40,815 bases of DNA from an uncultured Oscillospiraceae bacterium (GTDB lineage Bacteria; Bacillota; Clostridia; Oscillospirales; Oscillospiraceae): contig CANQQB010000014.1 of assembly GCA_947625845.1 (NCBI GenBank), positions 1 to 40,815 of the forward strand, in the 5' to 3' direction. The notes under the pieces were generated by a model. It made no database searches. It worked only from the letters and a program-made list of their open reading frames with translations, and was not told the origin of the DNA. Of this stretch, positions 29,474-38,288 are shown piece after piece (within the stretch, counting starts at the first letter, position 1; the number at the start of each line of letters is the position of its first letter). The position numbers and the translations under genes were made by a program.

Positions 29474-30607
29474 ATGAACAGAAAAGCCAACGTCGTCATC
29501 ATCGCGGTCTTCGCGCTCTTTCTTGGGGCATTTGCCCTGCTCCAGCCCATAATGCCGGACGTGGAATTTTCCCAGCAGGAAAACAAATACCTGCAAATGC
29601 TGCCCAGGTTCTCCCTGGACGCGCTGACGGACGGGGATTTCACCGAGGACTTCGAGCGCTATACCACCGACCAGTTCCCCTTCCGGGACGCCTGGGTGGC
29701 ACTGAAGGCACGGTGCGAGCTGCTCACCGGTAAGAAGGAGAACAACGGCGTCTACTATTGCGAGGGAGGCGTGCTCATTCCCGACTTTGACATGCCCGCG
29801 AAGGAGACCGTGGACAGGAACGTCAGTTATCTGAACGCGCTGGTAGATGGTATCGACATCCCGGTCTACTTTGGTCTGATCCCCGGCGCGGGCGAGGTGC
29901 AAGCCTCCCTCCTGCCGAAAAACGCCCCTGTTGGCAGCCAGCAGACCGTCATCGACTGGGCCTATGGCGCCAGCCGTGCTACCAACATCGACGTGCAATC
30001 CGCTCTTGGTGCGCACAAGGACGAGTATATCTTCTACCGCACGGACCACCACTGGACGAGCCTGGGCGCGTTCTACGGCTACGGGGCCCTGTGCCAGGCG
30101 CTGGACCTGCCTGCCCCCTCCCTGGCCTCCTACGACCGCCAGACGGTCTCCGAGGACTTTTACGGTACGTCCTACTCCTCCTCCGGCTTTGCCTGGGTGC
30201 GGCCGGACGCCATCGAGACCTTCGTCCCGGATGACGGCGCTGTCACGGTGTTCAACTGCGAAAAGGACCCGCCTACCCAGGGGCCGCTGTACGACACGTC
30301 GTTTCTGAACGTGAAGGACAAGTATTCCATGTTTCTGGGCGGCAACTGTGCTCTGCGCAGCATCGAGACGGGCCATGACGGACCCTCCATCCTGCTCATC
30401 CGAGACTCCTATTCGGACAGCCTGGCCCCCTTCCTGCTGGAGAATTTCTCCCGTGTCGATTTGATGGACCTGCGCTATTATCGGGGCTCCCCGGCGCGGT
30501 ACGCCGAGGAAAACGGTTTTGACGGCATACTGGTGCTGTACAGCGTCAGCACATTTGCCACGGACAGAAATCTCTATATGCTGGCACCGGAAATGGAGGG
30601 TTTTTAA
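29474..30607 (+). CDS. DHHW family protein (AlgX/AlgJ-like, extracytoplasmic)
   Basis: This 377-residue protein has one N-terminal membrane anchor (about residues 7-27) and a large outer domain. The family motif DHHW is at residues 191-194 within YRTDHHWTSLGA, and a serine motif RDSYSDSLAPFL near residue 310 may supply the SGNH-type nucleophile. Such proteins act with an MBOAT partner, taking the acyl group on the outer face and placing it on a wall polymer or exopolysaccharide. It lies directly behind the MBOAT gene. dut follows after a single base, which is odd given its different role. Confidence 0.88.
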   Translation: MNRKANVVIIAVFALFLGAFALLQPIMPDVEFSQQENKYLQMLPRFSLDALTDGDFTEDFERYTTDQFPFRDAWVALKARCELLTGKKENNGVYYCEGGVLIPDFDMPAKETVDRNVSYLNALVDGIDIPVYFGLIPGAGEVQASLLPKNAPVGSQQTVIDWAYGASRATNIDVQSALGAHKDEYIFYRTDHHWTSLGAFYGYGALCQALDLPAPSLASYDRQTVSEDFYGTSYSSSGFAWVRPDAIETFVPDDGAVTVFNCEKDPPTQGPLYDTSFLNVKDKYSMFLGGNCALRSIETGHDGPSILLIRDSYSDSLAPFLLENFSRVDLMDLRYYRGSPARYAEENGFDGILVLYSVSTFATDRNLYMLAPEMEGF

Positions 30608-31516: not shown

Positions 31517-33445
31517 TTACGCCTTCTCGGCCGTGAGAGGTTTTTCTCCCTCTGCTATCTGCGGGACCTCCGGCTCTCTGGGCGGAGGCGAGGCGGCGGG
31601 GAAAATGAGCTCCGCCTTGAACAGGTCCCCGTCCAGGGTCAGCCGCATCTCGCCGCCCATGAGCTCCGTAAGGCTCCGGGCGATGGAAAGCCCCAGGCCG
31701 CTGCCCTCGGTGCTCCGGGAGCTGTCCCCCCGGACAAAGCGCTCCATCAGCTCGTCGGCGGGCATGTCCAGCGGCGCGTGGGAGATGTTTTTCACCGCGA
31801 TCACCGTCTGCCCCTCCCGCTCGATCAAATCAAAATAGGCCCGTGTGCCCGGCTGGGCATATTTGATGATGTTGGTGATGAAATTGTCCAGCACCCGGCC
31901 CAGCAGCCGCCCGTCCGCCAGGACCCATGTCTCCTGCTCCGGCGTGTGCACGACCGGCTCCACGCCGGCGCCGGTGAGCCGTTCGGCGTACTCCCCCACC
32001 GACTGCTCCAAAAGCTCCCGCACGTCCAGTATCTCCGCGTGCACCGGCATGACGCCGCTGGCGGCCTTGGACGCCTCGATCACGTCCTCCGTCAGCTTCT
32101 TCAGCTTGGCGCTCTGCCGGTCCAGCACGTCCAGATACTCCCGACGGGTCTGCTCCGGCAGATCCTCACGCTTCAATAGCTCGATGTAGTTGATGATGGA
32201 GGTCAGAGGCGTTTTCAGGTCGTGGCTGACGTTGGTGATGAGCTCGGTCTTCATCCGCTCGCTGCGCAGCCGCTCCTCCACCGCCAGGGCCATCCCGTCG
32301 CCGATGCTGTTCAGGTCCCGACCCAGATCCCGCCAGATAAAATGCAGCTGTTTTTCGTTGACCTTATAGGCCAGGTCCCCCGACGCCAGCGCCGCCGACG
32401 CGCCGCGTATGCGCCTCTGCTCCCGGTCCCAGCGGATGTAGCACAGAAATACCACCGCGTCAAACGCCATCAAAACCAGGATGATGCGGGTGGTGCTGTA
32501 GTTAAAAAGAGCATAGACAACGCTCAGCAGCAAAAAGTCGGAATAGGGCAGCATCGCGCTCAGCAGCAAAAGCAGGTGTATCGCGACCACGCCTGACACC
32601 AGCGCCACAGGCGTGATCTTTTTCACCACCCGCCGCGTCAGCAGTCGGTCCGTGAACACGCCGGCGGAGAACTGGTTTGCCAGTATAAGCGCCAGCGCGC
32701 CGGCGCACCAGAGCAGAAAGATCATCTGGAACTGATTCTGGTAGATATGCAGCAGACGCAGGACCTCACGCACCGTTGTGCCCAGCATGCTATAGAAGAA
32801 CATGCTCGTCACCATCGGCACAAGTACCAGGCCCAGCGCCGCTGCGTCGAAGGGCAGCCATCCAAGGACCGTGAGCGCACCCCTCTTTCCCAGTCGGACC
32901 GCGCCGATGATACCAACGGCCAGCGCGGCGGCGCTCAGCAGCGTAAAGATGATGCCCAGCGGCAGAAAAAGCCGCCGCATGGGAAATATCTCGTTGAATA
33001 CGTAATACTCCCGGTAGCACCCCCCGTATGGCTGGACCGGCAGGTTCACATAGCCGCGCAGATGATAGTGCGTATCGTGTCCCTGGACCGTGATCAGCGT
33101 GCCGTAATCGGTCACGTAGCAGGACGCGTCCGTCGTGGTGTCCGCGTAGATCCAGTGGCTCTCGTTGTCCTCCACCACATAGGAGAACGCGCTGCCCGCG
33201 TAGCTGCCAAGGGTATCGTTGGTTGGATCCTCCAGCCAGGTCAGATTCGCCGCCACGAAATTCAGCGCGTCCAACACGTATTCCCGAGCCATATTGGTCT
33301 CGGCGAAGGTAAAGTCGTCGCCGAACCAGCCGTCCTGGAGCACGTACCGGTACAGGCCCAGCGTCAGCACTGCTCCGGCGGAGAACAGGAAAAACAGGGC
33401 CAGCGCCAACAGCCTGACCCATAGCTTTTCCATCAGCCGAAACAT
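31517..33445 (-). CDS. Sensor histidine kinase with multi-pass membrane domain
   Basis: This 642-residue kinase has a first membrane helix (residues 9-31) and an extracytoplasmic domain of about 125 residues. A block of around six more helices follows (about 158-337), then a HAMP-like linker (338-395). The catalytic core has H-box NVSHDLKTPLTS with His408, N-box NFITNIIKYA, VKNISHAPL, F-box MERFVRGDSS and G2 GSGLGLSIARS. The C-terminal tail is Pro/Glu-rich. The ligand is unknown. It starts 4 nt after the response regulator, with GGAGGGG in the regulator end. Confidence 0.93.
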   Translation of the reverse strand: MFRLMEKLWVRLLALALFFLFSAGAVLTLGLYRYVLQDGWFGDDFTFAETNMAREYVLDALNFVAANLTWLEDPTNDTLGSYAGSAFSYVVEDNESHWIYADTTTDASCYVTDYGTLITVQGHDTHYHLRGYVNLPVQPYGGCYREYYVFNEIFPMRRLFLPLGIIFTLLSAAALAVGIIGAVRLGKRGALTVLGWLPFDAAALGLVLVPMVTSMFFYSMLGTTVREVLRLLHIYQNQFQMIFLLWCAGALALILANQFSAGVFTDRLLTRRVVKKITPVALVSGVVAIHLLLLLSAMLPYSDFLLLSVVYALFNYSTTRIILVLMAFDAVVFLCYIRWDREQRRIRGASAALASGDLAYKVNEKQLHFIWRDLGRDLNSIGDGMALAVEERLRSERMKTELITNVSHDLKTPLTSIINYIELLKREDLPEQTRREYLDVLDRQSAKLKKLTEDVIEASKAASGVMPVHAEILDVRELLEQSVGEYAERLTGAGVEPVVHTPEQETWVLADGRLLGRVLDNFITNIIKYAQPGTRAYFDLIEREGQTVIAVKNISHAPLDMPADELMERFVRGDSSRSTEGSGLGLSIARSLTELMGGEMRLTLDGDLFKAELIFPAASPPPREPEVPQIAEGEKPLTAEKA

Positions 33446-33449
33446 CCGG

Positions 33450-34136
33450 TCACCCCTCCAGCTTGTAGCCCTTGCCCCAGACCAGCTTCAAATACTGGGG
33501 CATCGCCGGGTTGATCTCCAGCTTCTCCCGCAGGTGTCGGATGTGCACCGCCACCGTGCCCTCGGCCCCCATGGGCTTGTCGTTCCACACGCGGCGGTAT
33601 ATCTCCCGGCTGGAGAAGACCTTGCCGGGGTTTTCCATGAAGAACTTCAGGATGTCGTATTCCTTGGGGGTGATGGTGATCTTCTCCCCGTCCACGGACA
33701 CCTCTTTGTTCTCGTCGTCCAGCTCGATGCCCCCGATGACCAGCACGGACGGCCGGTCCGTCATGGTGGCCGAGTGCATATAGCGGCGCAAGATGGCCTT
33801 GACGCGGGCCAGGACCTCCTGGGCATTGAAGGGCTTGGTCACATAGTCGTCCGCGCCAAGCTCCAGGCCCATGATCTTGTCCTCGTCCTCGCTCTTGGCC
33901 GTCAGTAAAATCACCGGCACGCTGCTGGTCTCCCGCAGCCGCTTCAGCGCGGACACGCCGTCCATCTCCGGCATCATCACGTCCAGAATGACCAGATGGA
34001 CCTCTTCCCTGTCCATCAGTTCCAGCGCCTCCAGGCCGTTGGCGGCCTCCAGCACGTTATATCCGTCTCCGGTGAGGTAGATGCGCAGCGCCCGACGGAT
34101 GTCGTTGTCGTCGTCGCAGACAAGCACGGTGTACAC
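33450..34136 (-). CDS. OmpR/PhoB-family response regulator
   Basis: This 228-residue regulator has a receiver domain with the acidic cluster CDDDN (residues 7-11), phospho-acceptor Asp52 (ILDVMMPEMDG), a switch Thr79 and Lys101 (VTKPF). The winged-helix DNA-binding domain follows (TPKEYDILKFFMENPGKVFSS... and VAVHIRHLREKLE). I place the start at GTG 34136 because GGAGGAGG lies 8 nt upstream and it puts the acidic cluster at the usual distance from the N-terminus; an ATG at 34154 lies before that ribosome site. A PhoB-type direct repeat upstream suggests autoregulation. Confidence 0.93.
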   Translation of the reverse strand: MYTVLVCDDDNDIRRALRIYLTGDGYNVLEAANGLEALELMDREEVHLVILDVMMPEMDGVSALKRLRETSSVPVILLTAKSEDEDKIMGLELGADDYVTKPFNAQEVLARVKAILRRYMHSATMTDRPSVLVIGGIELDDENKEVSVDGEKITITPKEYDILKFFMENPGKVFSSREIYRRVWNDKPMGAEGTVAVHIRHLREKLEINPAMPQYLKLVWGKGYKLEG

Positions 34137-34166
34137 GTCTATCGCCTCCTCCATCCTTCTGTATGA

Positions 34167-34221
34167 ATAGTAACACAAGTTACAAAAAGATGAAAGAGAA
34201 AAGTTCTTAAGAATTTCTTAA
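34167..34221 (-). promoter_or_regulatory. Promoter with PhoB-type direct repeat upstream of the two-component operon
   Basis: On the minus strand TTAAGAA occurs twice with an 11-bp period (34221-34215 and 34210-34204). A weak -35 (TTTCAT, 34195-34190), 17 nt and TACTAT (34172-34167) follow. Direct repeats at one helical turn just upstream of a poor -35 are the usual binding site of OmpR/PhoB regulators at activated promoters. Confidence 0.6.
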
Positions 34222-34228
34222 TTATGAC

Positions 34229-34264
34229 AAAAAATGACGCCTTGGATACAAAACCCAAGGCGTC
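34229..34264 (-). terminator. Intrinsic terminator after the P-type ATPase homologue
   Basis: GACGCCTTGG and CCAAGGCGTC (34236-34245 and 34255-34264) form a perfect 10-bp stem. On the minus strand it is followed by A and six T (34234-34229). It closes the fba-ATPase unit and lies just upstream of the two-component promoter. Confidence 0.88.
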
Positions 34265-34280
34265 AGGTGTTTTAATTGTG

Positions 34281-35978
34281 TCATTTAGGCACCTGCGCTT
34301 CCCGCAGCATGAACGCACGCAGGGAGTTGAGCACGGCCAGCAGCGCCACACCCACGTCCGCGAACACGGCCAGCCACAGCGGGCAGGTGCCGAACATATC
34401 CCAGATCAGGATAATAAGCTTGAAGGCCAGAGCGAACACGATGTTCTGCCAGACGATGGAACGGGTATGCTTGGCCGCAGCCATAGCCGTCACCACCTTG
34501 GACGGCGACGCACCCATGATGACCACGTCGGCCGCCTGGATGGCGGCGTCGGACCTGGCCCCGTGCAGGCTCACGCCCACATCCGCCTGGCGGATGCACT
34601 CGGCGCTGGTCTCCGCGTCGCCCACGAACATCAGGGTGCCCCGCTTGATCTGGCGGTTCTGGATCTGCTTGACCACGGCAACCTTTTCGTTGGCGGGCAG
34701 CTCGGGATAGAACTCGTCGATGCCCACCTGGCGGGCAAATTTTTCCGCGGCGGCGGCGCTGTCGTCGGCGAGCATGGCGATCTGCCGCTGCTTGTCCCAG
34801 GACAGGACCGTCACCGTGCCGGGCGCGTCGGGCTTTGCCACGCTGCCAAACAGAATACGGCCCGCGTACTGCCCGTTGATGGCCAGATACACGCAATCCT
34901 CCCCGGACGCGTCAGGACCAGGGTCCGCGCCGTTTTCCCGCAGGAAGTCCAGAGTCCCCAGAACGATCTGGCCCCCTTCTACCTCCGCCGTGATGCCGAA
35001 GCCGTCCTCGCTCTGGTGGAAGCTGCGGATAAGCTCGATGTAGATGACGCCCTTATAGGCGGCCTTGACAGCCTCCGCGTAGGCGTGGTCGGAGTAAGCG
35101 CAGGCGTGGGCAGCGATACGCAGGAACACGTCCGCGTCCGCCTTCTCGCTCTTGACGGCCAGGACCCGCAGCCCCTCCCCTTCCAGCGCGCCGGTCTTGT
35201 CAAAGACCACCGCCTGGACGCGGGCTACGTCGTCCATCGCGCAGGTGTTTTTGAAGAGAATCCCCTGCCGGGTGGCACCGCCGATACCGGCGAAGTAACT
35301 CAGCGGGACAGAGATGACGATGGCGCAGGGACAGGCGATGACCATCAGGACCAGCGCCCTATACACGCCCTCCGCCACGGTCGTGTGCAGCGCCAGCGGG
35401 GACACCACGGCGATGACCGCCGCGATGCCCAATACCACCGGCGTATAGATACGCGCGAAGTGGGAGATAAATTCCTCCGTGCGGCCCTTGGGTCCCCTGT
35501 CGGCGCGCACGTCCGCCAGGACGGCGCTGGCCTCCGGAGAGCGGTTTTCCATCAGCCCCTCTATGTTCTGACGGACCTTCGCCACGGCATAGCCCTGGAA
35601 AAGCTCGCCAAGCTGGTAGAGGATCATCACGCTGGCGCCCTCGCTGGCCTGCCGGATGATCACGGAGGCCAGCGCGACGACGCTCATGAGAAGACTCTCG
35701 TCCAAAAGGTGCTTATGGAAGATATTCGCTACGGCCCGGATGAACACGTCGTACCCGGCGCACAGGATCGCCAGCACGTTCAGCACGACGCTCAGCCAGG
35801 GCAGCAGGTCCTCGGATACCAGACCACCCACGAAGAACACGACCGACGCGGCCAGCCGCCAGACCATCACCGTGTCAAAGCCGTGGTGCTCGTGGTGATG
35901 CTCCTGCATGCAGCTGTCGCATGTGCAGTCGTGCCCGTGACCGGCCACGGCCTCTTTTATCTCCCGGATAAAACTCAT
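34281..35978 (-). CDS. Degenerate heavy-metal P-type ATPase homologue lacking the actuator domain
   Basis: This 565-residue protein is a PIB-type metal ATPase homologue with a His/Cys-rich N-terminus (residues 14-32). It keeps the membrane metal site: Cys-Pro-Cys 216-218, Lys520 in helix 7 and Asp541 in helix 8, as in Zn/Cd/Pb pumps. It also keeps Asp260 in a modified phosphorylation loop (DKTGALEG for DKTGTLT). The ~110-residue actuator domain with TGES is absent: NRSPEASAVLADV (145-157) runs straight into GRTEEFISHFARIYTP (165-180). The HP motif is SDHA (296-299), TGD is ADD (404-406) and GDGxND is GDAETS (453-458). It is intact as an open frame, 3 nt after fba. Transport is unlikely; a metal-sensing, scaffold or relic role is possible. 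Confidence 0.85.
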   Translation of the reverse strand: MSFIREIKEAVAGHGHDCTCDSCMQEHHHEHHGFDTVMVWRLAASVVFFVGGLVSEDLLPWLSVVLNVLAILCAGYDVFIRAVANIFHKHLLDESLLMSVVALASVIIRQASEGASVMILYQLGELFQGYAVAKVRQNIEGLMENRSPEASAVLADVRADRGPKGRTEEFISHFARIYTPVVLGIAAVIAVVSPLALHTTVAEGVYRALVLMVIACPCAIVISVPLSYFAGIGGATRQGILFKNTCAMDDVARVQAVVFDKTGALEGEGLRVLAVKSEKADADVFLRIAAHACAYSDHAYAEAVKAAYKGVIYIELIRSFHQSEDGFGITAEVEGGQIVLGTLDFLRENGADPGPDASGEDCVYLAINGQYAGRILFGSVAKPDAPGTVTVLSWDKQRQIAMLADDSAAAAEKFARQVGIDEFYPELPANEKVAVVKQIQNRQIKRGTLMFVGDAETSAECIRQADVGVSLHGARSDAAIQAADVVIMGASPSKVVTAMAAAKHTRSIVWQNIVFALAFKLIILIWDMFGTCPLWLAVFADVGVALLAVLNSLRAFMLREAQVPK

Positions 35979-35981
35979 AAA

Positions 35982-36950
35982 TCAGGCCTTGCCAGCGCAG
36001 CCCAGCACGTCCACCAGCTTGTGGCGTACCAGTTCCTTGATGTTGGCGCGGGCGGGCTTCAGGTACTCGCGGGGGTCGAACTTGTCGGGGTGCTCGTCGA
36101 AGAACTGACGGATGGTGCCGGTCATGGCAAGACGCAGGTCGGAGTCGATGTTGATCTTGCACACGCTCAGCGTCGCGGCCTTGCGAAGCTGTTCCTCGGG
36201 GATACCCACGGCGTCGGGCATCTTGCCGCCGTGCTCGTTGATCATCTTCACGTAGTTCTGGGGAACGGAGGAAGAGCCATGCAGCACGATGGGGAAGCCG
36301 GGCAGACGCTTGGAGACCTCTTCCAGCACGTCGAAGCGCAGGGGAGGCGGAACCAGGATACCCTTCTCGTTGCGGGTGCACTGAGCGGCGGTGAACTTGT
36401 AAGCGCCGTGGCTGGTGCCGATGGCGATGGCCAAGCTGTCGCAGCCGGTCTTGGAGACGAACTCCTCGACCTCTTCCGGATGGGTGTAAGAGGAATCCTC
36501 GGCGGAGACCTTCACCTCGTCCTCCACGCCGGCCAGGGTACCCAGCTCGGCCTCCACGACCACGCCGTGGTCATGGGCATACTCGACCACCTTGCGGGTG
36601 ATCTCGATGTTCTCCTGGAAAGGCTTGGAGGAAGCGTCGATCATGACGGAGGTAAAGCCGCCGTCGATGCAGCTCTTGCAGGTCTCGAAGTCGGGGCCGT
36701 GGTCCAGATGCAGCACCACGGGGATCTCCGGACATTCCGCCACGGCGGCCTCCACCAGCTTCACCAGATAGGTGTGGTTGGCGTAGGCGCGGGCACCCTT
36801 GGACACCTGCAGGATCACGGGGGCGTGCTCTTCCCGGCAGGCCTCGGTGATGCCCTGGACGATCTCCATGTTGTTGACGTTGAAAGCGCCGATGGCGTAG
36901 CCGCCGTCATAGGCTTTCTTGAACATTTCGGTGGATGTTACGAGAGGCAT
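35982..36950 (-). CDS. fba: Class II fructose-bisphosphate aldolase
   Basis: Class II aldolases split fructose 1,6-bisphosphate into DHAP and glyceraldehyde 3-phosphate using a divalent metal, normally zinc. The 322-residue protein shows IGAFNVNNMEIVQGI, the metal His in VVLHLDHGPDFETC, EAELGTLAG with the catalytic-side Glu, AIGTSHGAYKF, and VLHGSSSVPQ followed by KINIDSDLR. AAGGAGAG precedes the ATG. It is divergent from pfp, which makes its substrate, and is followed after 3 nt by the P-type ATPase homologue. Confidence 0.96.
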   Translation of the reverse strand: MPLVTSTEMFKKAYDGGYAIGAFNVNNMEIVQGITEACREEHAPVILQVSKGARAYANHTYLVKLVEAAVAECPEIPVVLHLDHGPDFETCKSCIDGGFTSVMIDASSKPFQENIEITRKVVEYAHDHGVVVEAELGTLAGVEDEVKVSAEDSSYTHPEEVEEFVSKTGCDSLAIAIGTSHGAYKFTAAQCTRNEKGILVPPPLRFDVLEEVSKRLPGFPIVLHGSSSVPQNYVKMINEHGGKMPDAVGIPEEQLRKAATLSVCKINIDSDLRLAMTGTIRQFFDEHPDKFDPREYLKPARANIKELVRHKLVDVLGCAGKA

Positions 36951-36986
36951 AATAGAATCTCTCCTTCACAAAAATTTTTTGCACCC

Positions 36987-37015
36987 TTTATTTTAACGCA
37001 TGTTTGTGCTATAAT
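36987..37015 (+). promoter_or_regulatory. Promoter of pfp, extended -10, overlapping that of fba
   Basis: TATAAT (37010-37015) with an upstream TGc makes an extended -10; the -35 at 17 nt is weak (TTTATT, 36987-36992). The start near 37022 gives a leader of about 25 nt with TGGAGGG. It covers almost the same bases as the fba promoter. Confidence 0.65.
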
Positions 37016-37018
37016 CAA
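36990..37018 (-). promoter_or_regulatory. Promoter of fba, overlapping that of pfp
   Basis: On the minus strand TTGATT (37018-37013), a 17-nt spacer and TAAAAT (36995-36990) form a near-consensus promoter. The predicted start near 36983 leaves about 32 nt of leader with a strong ribosome site. Confidence 0.7.
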
Positions 37019-37046
37019 CAAAAACATTTTATTTGGAGGGAAAATT

Positions 37047-38288
37047 ATGCCAGAAAAACTTGTTGGGGCCTGCATCATCGGCCAGTCCGGCGGCCCCACG
37101 TCCGTCATCAACGCCAGCGCTTACGGCGCCATCAGCGCCGCTCTGGAGGCCGAGGAGATCACCCAGGTCCTGGGCGCCGACCACGGCATCACCGGCGTGC
37201 TCGCCGACAAGCTCTACGATATGGGCCAGGAAGACCCCCAGGAGCTGGCCTATCTGAAAAACACCCCGTCCTCCGAGCTGGGCTCCTGCCGGTACAAGCT
37301 GGCCGACCCCGAGGCGGATGACACGGACTATAAGCGCATACTGGAGGTGTTCAAGAAGCACAACGTCCGCTATTTCTTCTATAACGGCGGCAACGACTCC
37401 ATGGACACCTGCGACAAGATCAGCCGCTTTATGTCCAAGTCCGGCTGGGACTGCCACGTGATGGGCATCCCCAAGACCATCGACAACGACCTGTGGGGCA
37501 CCGACCACTGCCCCGGCTTCGCCTCCGCCGCCAAGTATATCGCCACCAGCGCCATGGAAGTGTCCAAGGACAGCAAGGTCTACCCCACCGGCCAGGTCAC
37601 CATCATGGAGATAATGGGCCGTCACGCGGGCTGGCTGGCAGGTTCCGCAGCCTTGGCGTCCTATTTTGGCGCGGGTCCCGACCTGGTCTATCTGCCGGAG
37701 ACCGACTTTGACCAGGACGCGTTCCTGAACGACGTGGAGCGCATCTACAACGAGAAGAAAAACTGCCTGGTGGCCGTGTCCGAGGGCCTGCATTATGCCG
37801 ACGGCACCTTCGTATCCGAGGCTAAGACCAGCGCCACCGACGGCTTTGGTCACGCACAGCTTGGCGGTCTGGCCGCTCGTCTTGGAGAGCTGGTCAAGGC
37901 CCGCACCGGCGCAAAGGTCCGGCCCATCGAGCTGAGCCTTTTGCAGCGCTGCGGCGCGCACCTGGCCTCCGCCACCGACCTGGAGGAAGCCGAGATGGCC
38001 GGCCGCAAGGCTGTGGAGGCCGCCGTCGCCGGCGAGACCGGCAAGATGGTCGCCTTTGAGCGGACCTTTGACGAGAATGGCAAGTACGTGTGCAAATACG
38101 TCCTGCTGCCTCTGACCACCGTCGCCAACGCGGAGAAGAAGGTCCCCATGGAGTGGATCACCCCGGAGCACAACTTTGTGACCAAGGACTTCATCGACTA
38201 CGTCCTTCCCCTGATCCAGGGTGAGCCGGAGCGTCCCACGGAGAACTCCCTGCCCCGTTATGCCAAGCTCAAGAAGGTCCAGGCGTAA
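37047..38288 (+). CDS. pfp: PPi-dependent-type 6-phosphofructokinase
   Basis: This enzyme phosphorylates fructose 6-phosphate, probably with pyrophosphate instead of ATP. The 413-residue protein has GQSGGPTSVINAS (residues 12-24), YNGGNDSMDT with Asp117 where ATP enzymes have Gly, IPKTIDNDLWGTDHCPGF with Lys143 where ATP enzymes have Gly, and MEIMGRHAGWLAG. Asp and Lys at these two sites are the known marker of PPi specificity. The ATG follows TGGAGGG. A much longer in-frame open stretch upstream is antisense to the minus-strand genes and is not coding. The reaction is reversible with PPi, which would allow gluconeogenic flow. Confidence 0.92.
   Translation: MPEKLVGACIIGQSGGPTSVINASAYGAISAALEAEEITQVLGADHGITGVLADKLYDMGQEDPQELAYLKNTPSSELGSCRYKLADPEADDTDYKRILEVFKKHNVRYFFYNGGNDSMDTCDKISRFMSKSGWDCHVMGIPKTIDNDLWGTDHCPGFASAAKYIATSAMEVSKDSKVYPTGQVTIMEIMGRHAGWLAGSAALASYFGAGPDLVYLPETDFDQDAFLNDVERIYNEKKNCLVAVSEGLHYADGTFVSEAKTSATDGFGHAQLGGLAARLGELVKARTGAKVRPIELSLLQRCGAHLASATDLEEAEMAGRKAVEAAVAGETGKMVAFERTFDENGKYVCKYVLLPLTTVANAEKKVPMEWITPEHNFVTKDFIDYVLPLIQGEPERPTENSLPRYAKLKKVQA

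Follow-up and report, generated by a model that had tools for sequence, protein, structure and literature searches.

The stretch of DNA analysed here (the window) comprises 40,815 nt of a contig (CANQQB010000014.1) from an uncultured Oscillospiraceae bacterium, and the gene of interest encodes a homologue of the P1B-type metal pumps from which the entire actuator (A) domain is missing. As judged from sequence comparison, there is a strong case that this gene is a conserved pseudo-ATPase and not a pseudogene. It lies directly downstream of fba, the gene for a class II fructose-bisphosphate aldolase, and the two apparently form an operon with the pseudo-ATPase as second gene. Its role is assigned more tentatively: quite possibly, although short of probably, the protein is an aldolase-coupled P1B pseudo-ATPase that binds Zn2+ in this genus to buffer, deliver or sense metal. 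The gene and its diagnostic parts are:

34281..35978, minus strand: A-domain-less P1B-type pseudo-ATPase, 565 amino acids, no internal stop (translation, profile matches, alignment, predicted structure)
35883..35939, minus strand: N-terminal His/Cys motif, residues 14-32 (HGHDCTCDSC...HHHEHH), with H14, H16, C18, C20 and C23 in 34/34 copies
35481..35549, minus strand: junction at the missing A domain, residues 144-166 (alignment; the model has one short helix here, 148-158)
35325..35333, minus strand: CPC of membrane helix M4, residues 216-218 (34/34)
35178..35201, minus strand: altered phosphorylation motif DKTGALEG, residues 260-267 (sequence, alignment)
35082..35093, minus strand: altered HP motif SDHA, residues 296-299 (sequence, alignment)
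34761..34769, minus strand: altered TGD motif ADD, residues 404-406 (sequence, alignment)
34605..34622, minus strand: altered GDGxND motif GDAETS, residues 453-458 (sequence, alignment)
34419..34421, minus strand: Lys520 in M5 (34/34)
34356..34358, minus strand: Asp541 in M6 (33/34)

The initial annotation of this gene had claimed that the TGES-bearing A domain is missing, that four catalytic motifs are altered and that the metal ligands remain, and all three claims were borne out. Aligned with an intact relative, the window protein fills 5 of the 91 core columns of the A domain, TGES is absent, and no such domain is found in the predicted model either. A functional P-type ATPase carries an A domain with TGE as well as the motifs DKTGTLT, TGD and GDGxND, which here read DKTGALEG, ADD and GDAETS. 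The HP motif, found in the N domain of a functional P1B-ATPase, has become SDHA. The A, N and P domains of P-type ATPases are all regarded as indispensable. The metal site of the P1B-2 pumps (CPC in M4, Lys in M5, Asp in M6) is in place, and so is the His/Cys-rich N-terminus.

Descent from the P-type ATPase superfamily is supported by the general P-type model TIGR01494, which the window protein passes with 93.7 bits (cut-off 62.3), and the gathering scores of PF00122 and PF00702 are also exceeded. The more specific models TIGR01525 (287.7 bits, cut-off 346.25) and TIGR01512 (259 bits, cut-off 313.5) are missed; an intact relative (L160) passes both, with 528.2 and 491.9 bits. The AlphaFold2 model matches the fold of the P1B pumps and, as the initial annotation had anticipated, shows the membrane domain without an A domain. 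It contains the eight membrane helices expected of a P1B-ATPase (36-55, 60-87, 94-107, 111-143, 166-197, 201-237 with a break at 215-217, 493-528 and 534-557) together with the P and N domains, and a short linker replaces the A domain. In a Pfam scan of ten relatives, three (L232, L204, L038) fell below every gathering score, so that such proteins may escape annotation.

The gene was found in all 35 genomes sampled from the same genus (g1), with zero stops within the match, and is thus not a chance feature. The 34 full-length copies could be aligned (the 35th, in G008, is split across two contig ends); they span 567 columns, which leaves no space for an A domain in any of them, and the other 33 are 42 to 97% identical to the window copy. 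Invariant among the 34 are C216, P217, C218, K520, H14, H16, C18, C20, C23, H291, C293 and C532. Several catalytic positions are looser: K261 is retained in 32 copies, T262 in 28, G263 in 31, K432 in 25, H298 in 3 and P299 in 18. The ratio of nonsynonymous to synonymous substitution rates (dN/dS), obtained by Nei-Gojobori counting and not from a codon model, has a median of 0.204 and a maximum of 0.325 (404 pairs with a whole-gene dS of 0.1-1.2). When regional dN is set over whole-gene dS, constraint is tightest in M5-M6 (0.073) and the junction linker (0.080) and loosest in the P/N domains (0.251). For comparison, five intact ZntA-like proteins from within the genus (ten pairs) gave 0.167-0.637; since these are perhaps not all strict orthologues and their alignment takes in loose N-terminal ends, this shows only that constraint on the pseudo-ATPase is not clearly weaker than on live pumps. 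Among the best 80 loci of a contig scan, two are genus members (L051, 82% identity; L052, 78%) and the other 78, inspected in part, match at 27-36% identity; the scan is not informative on distribution.

The linkage to fba is likewise found throughout the genus: the start codon of the pseudo-ATPase lies 1-9 nt downstream of the fba stop codon in 35 of 35 genomes. A clade that shares the domain loss under a dN/dS well below 1 and stands beside fba had been predicted by the initial annotation, and it is what was found. The immediate surroundings in the window are:

35982..36950, minus strand: class II fructose-bisphosphate aldolase gene (fba), 3 nt upstream of the pseudo-ATPase (TIGR01859, 359 bits, cut-off 343.05)
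37047..38288, plus strand: gene divergent from fba, open frame, presumably phosphofructokinase-like (named from its sequence)
34235..34265, minus strand: terminator-like hairpin (13 pairs, T run) directly 3' of the pseudo-ATPase and before a response regulator gene (pattern match only)

Class II fructose-bisphosphate aldolases need divalent metal. The upstream aldolase is 67-73% identical to that of the window in 10 of the 35 genus genomes and 93-100% identical in the other 25. It appears that fba was exchanged in place while the coupling to the downstream pseudo-ATPase persisted. The genus loci listed for the two-kind aldolase are L024, L025, L028, L030, L031 and L033-L037.

Beyond the genus, fba was searched in 170 genomes of the family and matched in 154, covering 97 of 106 genera. 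From the match list 100 fba loci were taken, mostly one per genus, nine of which have less than 1.5 kb downstream before the contig ends. A P1B-like frame follows on the fba strand in 12 of these 100 loci (two weak opposite-strand matches excluded). Three of the 12 (L195, L197 and L173, the last cut by the end of its own sequence) show intact motifs as far as visible. They have an ArsR/SmtB-like match between fba and the ATPase (a tblastn match in L195), and the ATPase lies 2.3 kb from fba in L197 and 3.1 kb in L173. The remaining nine (L172, L187, L204, L210, L224, L232, L246, L251, L268) are all degenerate, begin 17-75 bp past the fba match and have no ArsR match. At four more of the 100 loci (L180, L199, L208, L265) an ArsR-like match follows fba and there is no ATPase.

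Outside this survey, L160 (G126) and L165 (G253) display the order phosphofructokinase, fba, ArsR/SmtB, intact pump. In L190 and L258, from other genomes of the genus of L165, no pump directly follows fba. Intact relatives at this locus, which the initial annotation would have taken as the mark of a recent pseudogene, thus exist only in other genera (48% identity to the window protein for L160 and 41% for L165, over the C-terminal part) and suggest an ancestor instead. The ancestral arrangement was likely fba - arsR - pump, as far as gene order and sequence tell, and the dead form may have arisen with the loss of the regulator and the tight joining to fba. In total, twelve other genera were found to carry degenerate relatives (g3, g4, g5, g21, g26, g61, g74, g84, g103, g112, g127, g134), in ten of which the copy directly follows fba (the exceptions are g3 and g26). 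The copies of genomes G100 and G037 are also degenerate and directly after fba. G100, a genome with 6% contamination, holds two A-less copies (L158, L159) that are 63% identical, each adjoining its own fba, 51 and 75 nt after it.

In a tree of 43 rows, several of them on long branches (up to 3.26), the A-less proteins of g1 and g61 form one branch (support 95/91). The other degenerate proteins of the fba locus, minus L187, form a second (11 rows, 85/82; 10 of them 97/93), in which A-less and A-bearing rows are mixed. L187 and L048 (the G036 protein) sit outside both, on long branches. L048 retains its A domain and CPC, has GNGIGNGP in place of GDGxNDxP and adjoins an SGNH-like gene, which is likewise found next to the intact L160 locus. 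By parsimony, the presence or absence of the A domain changed at least three times, a count that omits L187 (G054). This protein has no safe placement and was scored as A-bearing in the topology test, though it fills only 9 of the 91 A-core columns. A single origin of the loss, with the 15 A-less rows as one clade, was rejected by the approximately unbiased (AU) test (p-AU 0.00128), the long branches leaving some doubt. Because several rows have such branches, a claim of two independent losses is more secure than one of three, and the safer statement from these sequences is that the A domain appears to have been lost at least twice.

The second degenerate clade has members in g5, g112, g74, g134, g103, g84, g127, g4 and g26, and the A domain is absent in g5, g74, g112 and g134. 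In g112 the gene is present in 8 of 10 genomes and adjoins fba in all 8. In g5 it is present in 30 of 41 sampled genomes (one copy split over two contigs); the 10 copies checked are all A-less and adjoin fba, and the A-less state of the rest is deduced from the match span. CPC is gone in every row inspected (NPC, NPF, NPY, NTA or TPC in g112, xxP in g5), the M5 Lys is kept in 18 of 18 rows and the M6 Asp in a fraction of 0.89 of them. The fold residues A290, G328 and G373 as well as K520/W535 are common to both clades. For g112, dN/dS is 0.05-0.21 in close pairs and 0.28-0.51 in more distant ones. Two fba-linked members from g103 (L224, L268; 80% mutual identity) have an A domain and a Ser in place of the phosphorylated Asp (FSAEGTLT); the dN/dS of this pair is 0.05, with dS near saturation (2.70).

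For the window protein, the source would be a P1B-2 (Zn/Cd) pump that became a non-cycling pseudo-ATPase. Without an A domain it could perform neither dephosphorylation nor E1/E2 switching and would be left as a membrane protein whose metal site is fixed. The CPC/Lys/Asp site and the N-terminal His/Cys motif would bind Zn2+ or a comparable metal. With its production matched to that of the metal-requiring aldolase, the protein would most likely serve to buffer, deliver or sense that metal for glycolysis. In the three most divergent genus members the metal residues have persisted better than the catalytic ones (one of the three is without Asp541), which favours a Zn2+-binding role for this genus. 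The initial annotation had proposed a pseudo-ATPase kept for another job, such as metal sensing, buffering or delivery. Retention for another job is supported by the conservation beside fba, the dN/dS values and the predicted structure. The metal function is supported only in part: within the genus the ligands outlast most catalytic residues, but such a role is weakened by the second clade, which is without CPC.

Several further observations weigh against this reading of the window protein. D260 is retained in 33 and D454 in 32 of the 34 copies, about as often as the membrane ligands, so that some P-domain chemistry is possible. ZntA-like matches (36-40% identity) occur in 32 of the 35 genus genomes, and the five that were checked have intact motifs. 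One of the two g61 copies has no N-terminal His/Cys motif. Degenerate P1B relatives also occur away from fba (L048) or beside a phosphofructokinase gene with no fba between (L050 in G059, which bears an A domain). The in-place replacement of fba speaks against a fine-tuned protein contact. Finally, CPC was lost in the second clade despite fba linkage and constraint (g112); CPC-based metal binding is therefore not a shared function of both clades.

The main alternative is a metal-independent membrane partner or regulator, in which the pump scaffold tethers or regulates the aldolase or another glycolytic step at the membrane and the metal site is structural or a relic. Such a metal-free role probably holds for the second clade; as an explanation of the window protein it is somewhat unlikely. 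It would account for the degenerate, CPC-less relatives directly after fba in several genera (all nine degenerate survey copies lie within the short distances given above), for the constraint where this was examined (the close pairs of g112) and for the residues common to both clades. However, few residues are better conserved in this genus than the metal ligands, and the seeming replacement of fba counts against a partner of the aldolase as well. An ungated Zn2+ facilitator, which without its A domain would passively admit metal for the aldolase, is improbable: no membrane helix and no part of the ligand set is missing, and M5-M6 are retained most strongly, but an open metal route would presumably do harm when zinc is abundant, and a clade without CPC probably does not act in this way. 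Slightly more improbable still is a protein that regulates the cell's own ZntA/CopA-type pumps as a subunit or serves as a decoy for them; the ZntA-like matches in most genus genomes would provide it with a target, but the conserved linkage is to fba. A decaying pseudogene can practically be dismissed and is ruled out for this genus, for although the catalytic motifs and an entire domain are lost and other genera have intact relatives at this locus, all 35 genomes are stop-free within the match, dN/dS is far below 1 and the A-less state is common to g61.

The Zn2+-binding pseudo-ATPase favoured here differs from the ZntA/CadA P1B-2 ATPases (TIGR01512/TIGR01525; zinc-transporting structures 4umv and 4umw) in the absence of the A domain, in its altered phosphorylation, HP, TGD and GDGxND motifs and in its position directly after fba with no metalloregulator gene between. 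The intact fba - ArsR/SmtB - P1B-ATPase loci (L160, L165, L195) resemble the window in their order beside fba and a phosphofructokinase-like gene, but have the A domain, all motifs and the intervening ArsR/SmtB-type gene. The second degenerate clade is alike in its lost catalytic motifs and its place directly after fba (except g26), and differs in the loss of CPC and in its separate tree branch. PMC10211241, which has 0 occurrences of 'P-type ATPase', defines a pseudoenzyme as a conserved protein without conserved catalytic motifs. The window protein, with its catalytic motifs lost under purifying selection, fits this definition. The open-licence literature searched names no A-less or pseudo P-type ATPase in its titles and the openings of its abstracts, which does not show absence from print, and no paper in it was found to join the family, ATPase and aldolase, or zinc and glycolysis.

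On a broader scale, these proteins could be a family of P-type pseudo-ATPases, recognised here for the first time. We advance this with some hesitation: an aldolase-side zinc pump of gut Oscillospiraceae-type bacteria may have been converted repeatedly, losing its metalloregulator, its catalysis and (two or three times independently) its whole A domain; what it became would be a membrane protein coupled to the aldolase and connecting glycolysis with metal or membrane state. If true, loss of the A domain and of the catalytic motifs would have recurred in a lineage under selection, in most cases at this one glycolytic locus, and the membrane and P/N scaffold would be useful by itself. This would also hint that metal or membrane status is tied to the aldolase step in an unrecognised way.

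Downstream of the pseudo-ATPase the window contains:

31517-34178, minus strand: response regulator and kinase of VanR/VanS-like type (scores do not reach the cut-offs set for the resistance models)

Such a pair is located downstream in most genus loci; in L030 and L031 a kinase-like gene of the opposite strand is all that was seen, and no match to the pair was obtained in the stretches examined for L034-L037. Given this patchy linkage and the terminator-like hairpin that intervenes in the window, the two-component pair was rejected as part of the fba/pseudo-ATPase unit. An Rfam scan of the window gave 0 matches at the gathering score. In G059 the best fba match is on a different contig from L050. 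The frame at 29474-30607 of the plus strand encodes a protein without any NCBIfam match, which we take from its sequence to be SGNH/AlgX-like, and which recurs near the locus in other genera (L160, L189, L190, L258). Finally, an open frame of 1354 codons (34224-38288, plus strand) runs antisense to the pseudo-ATPase and fba and includes the phosphofructokinase frame; its antisense portion looks like a by-product of base composition.
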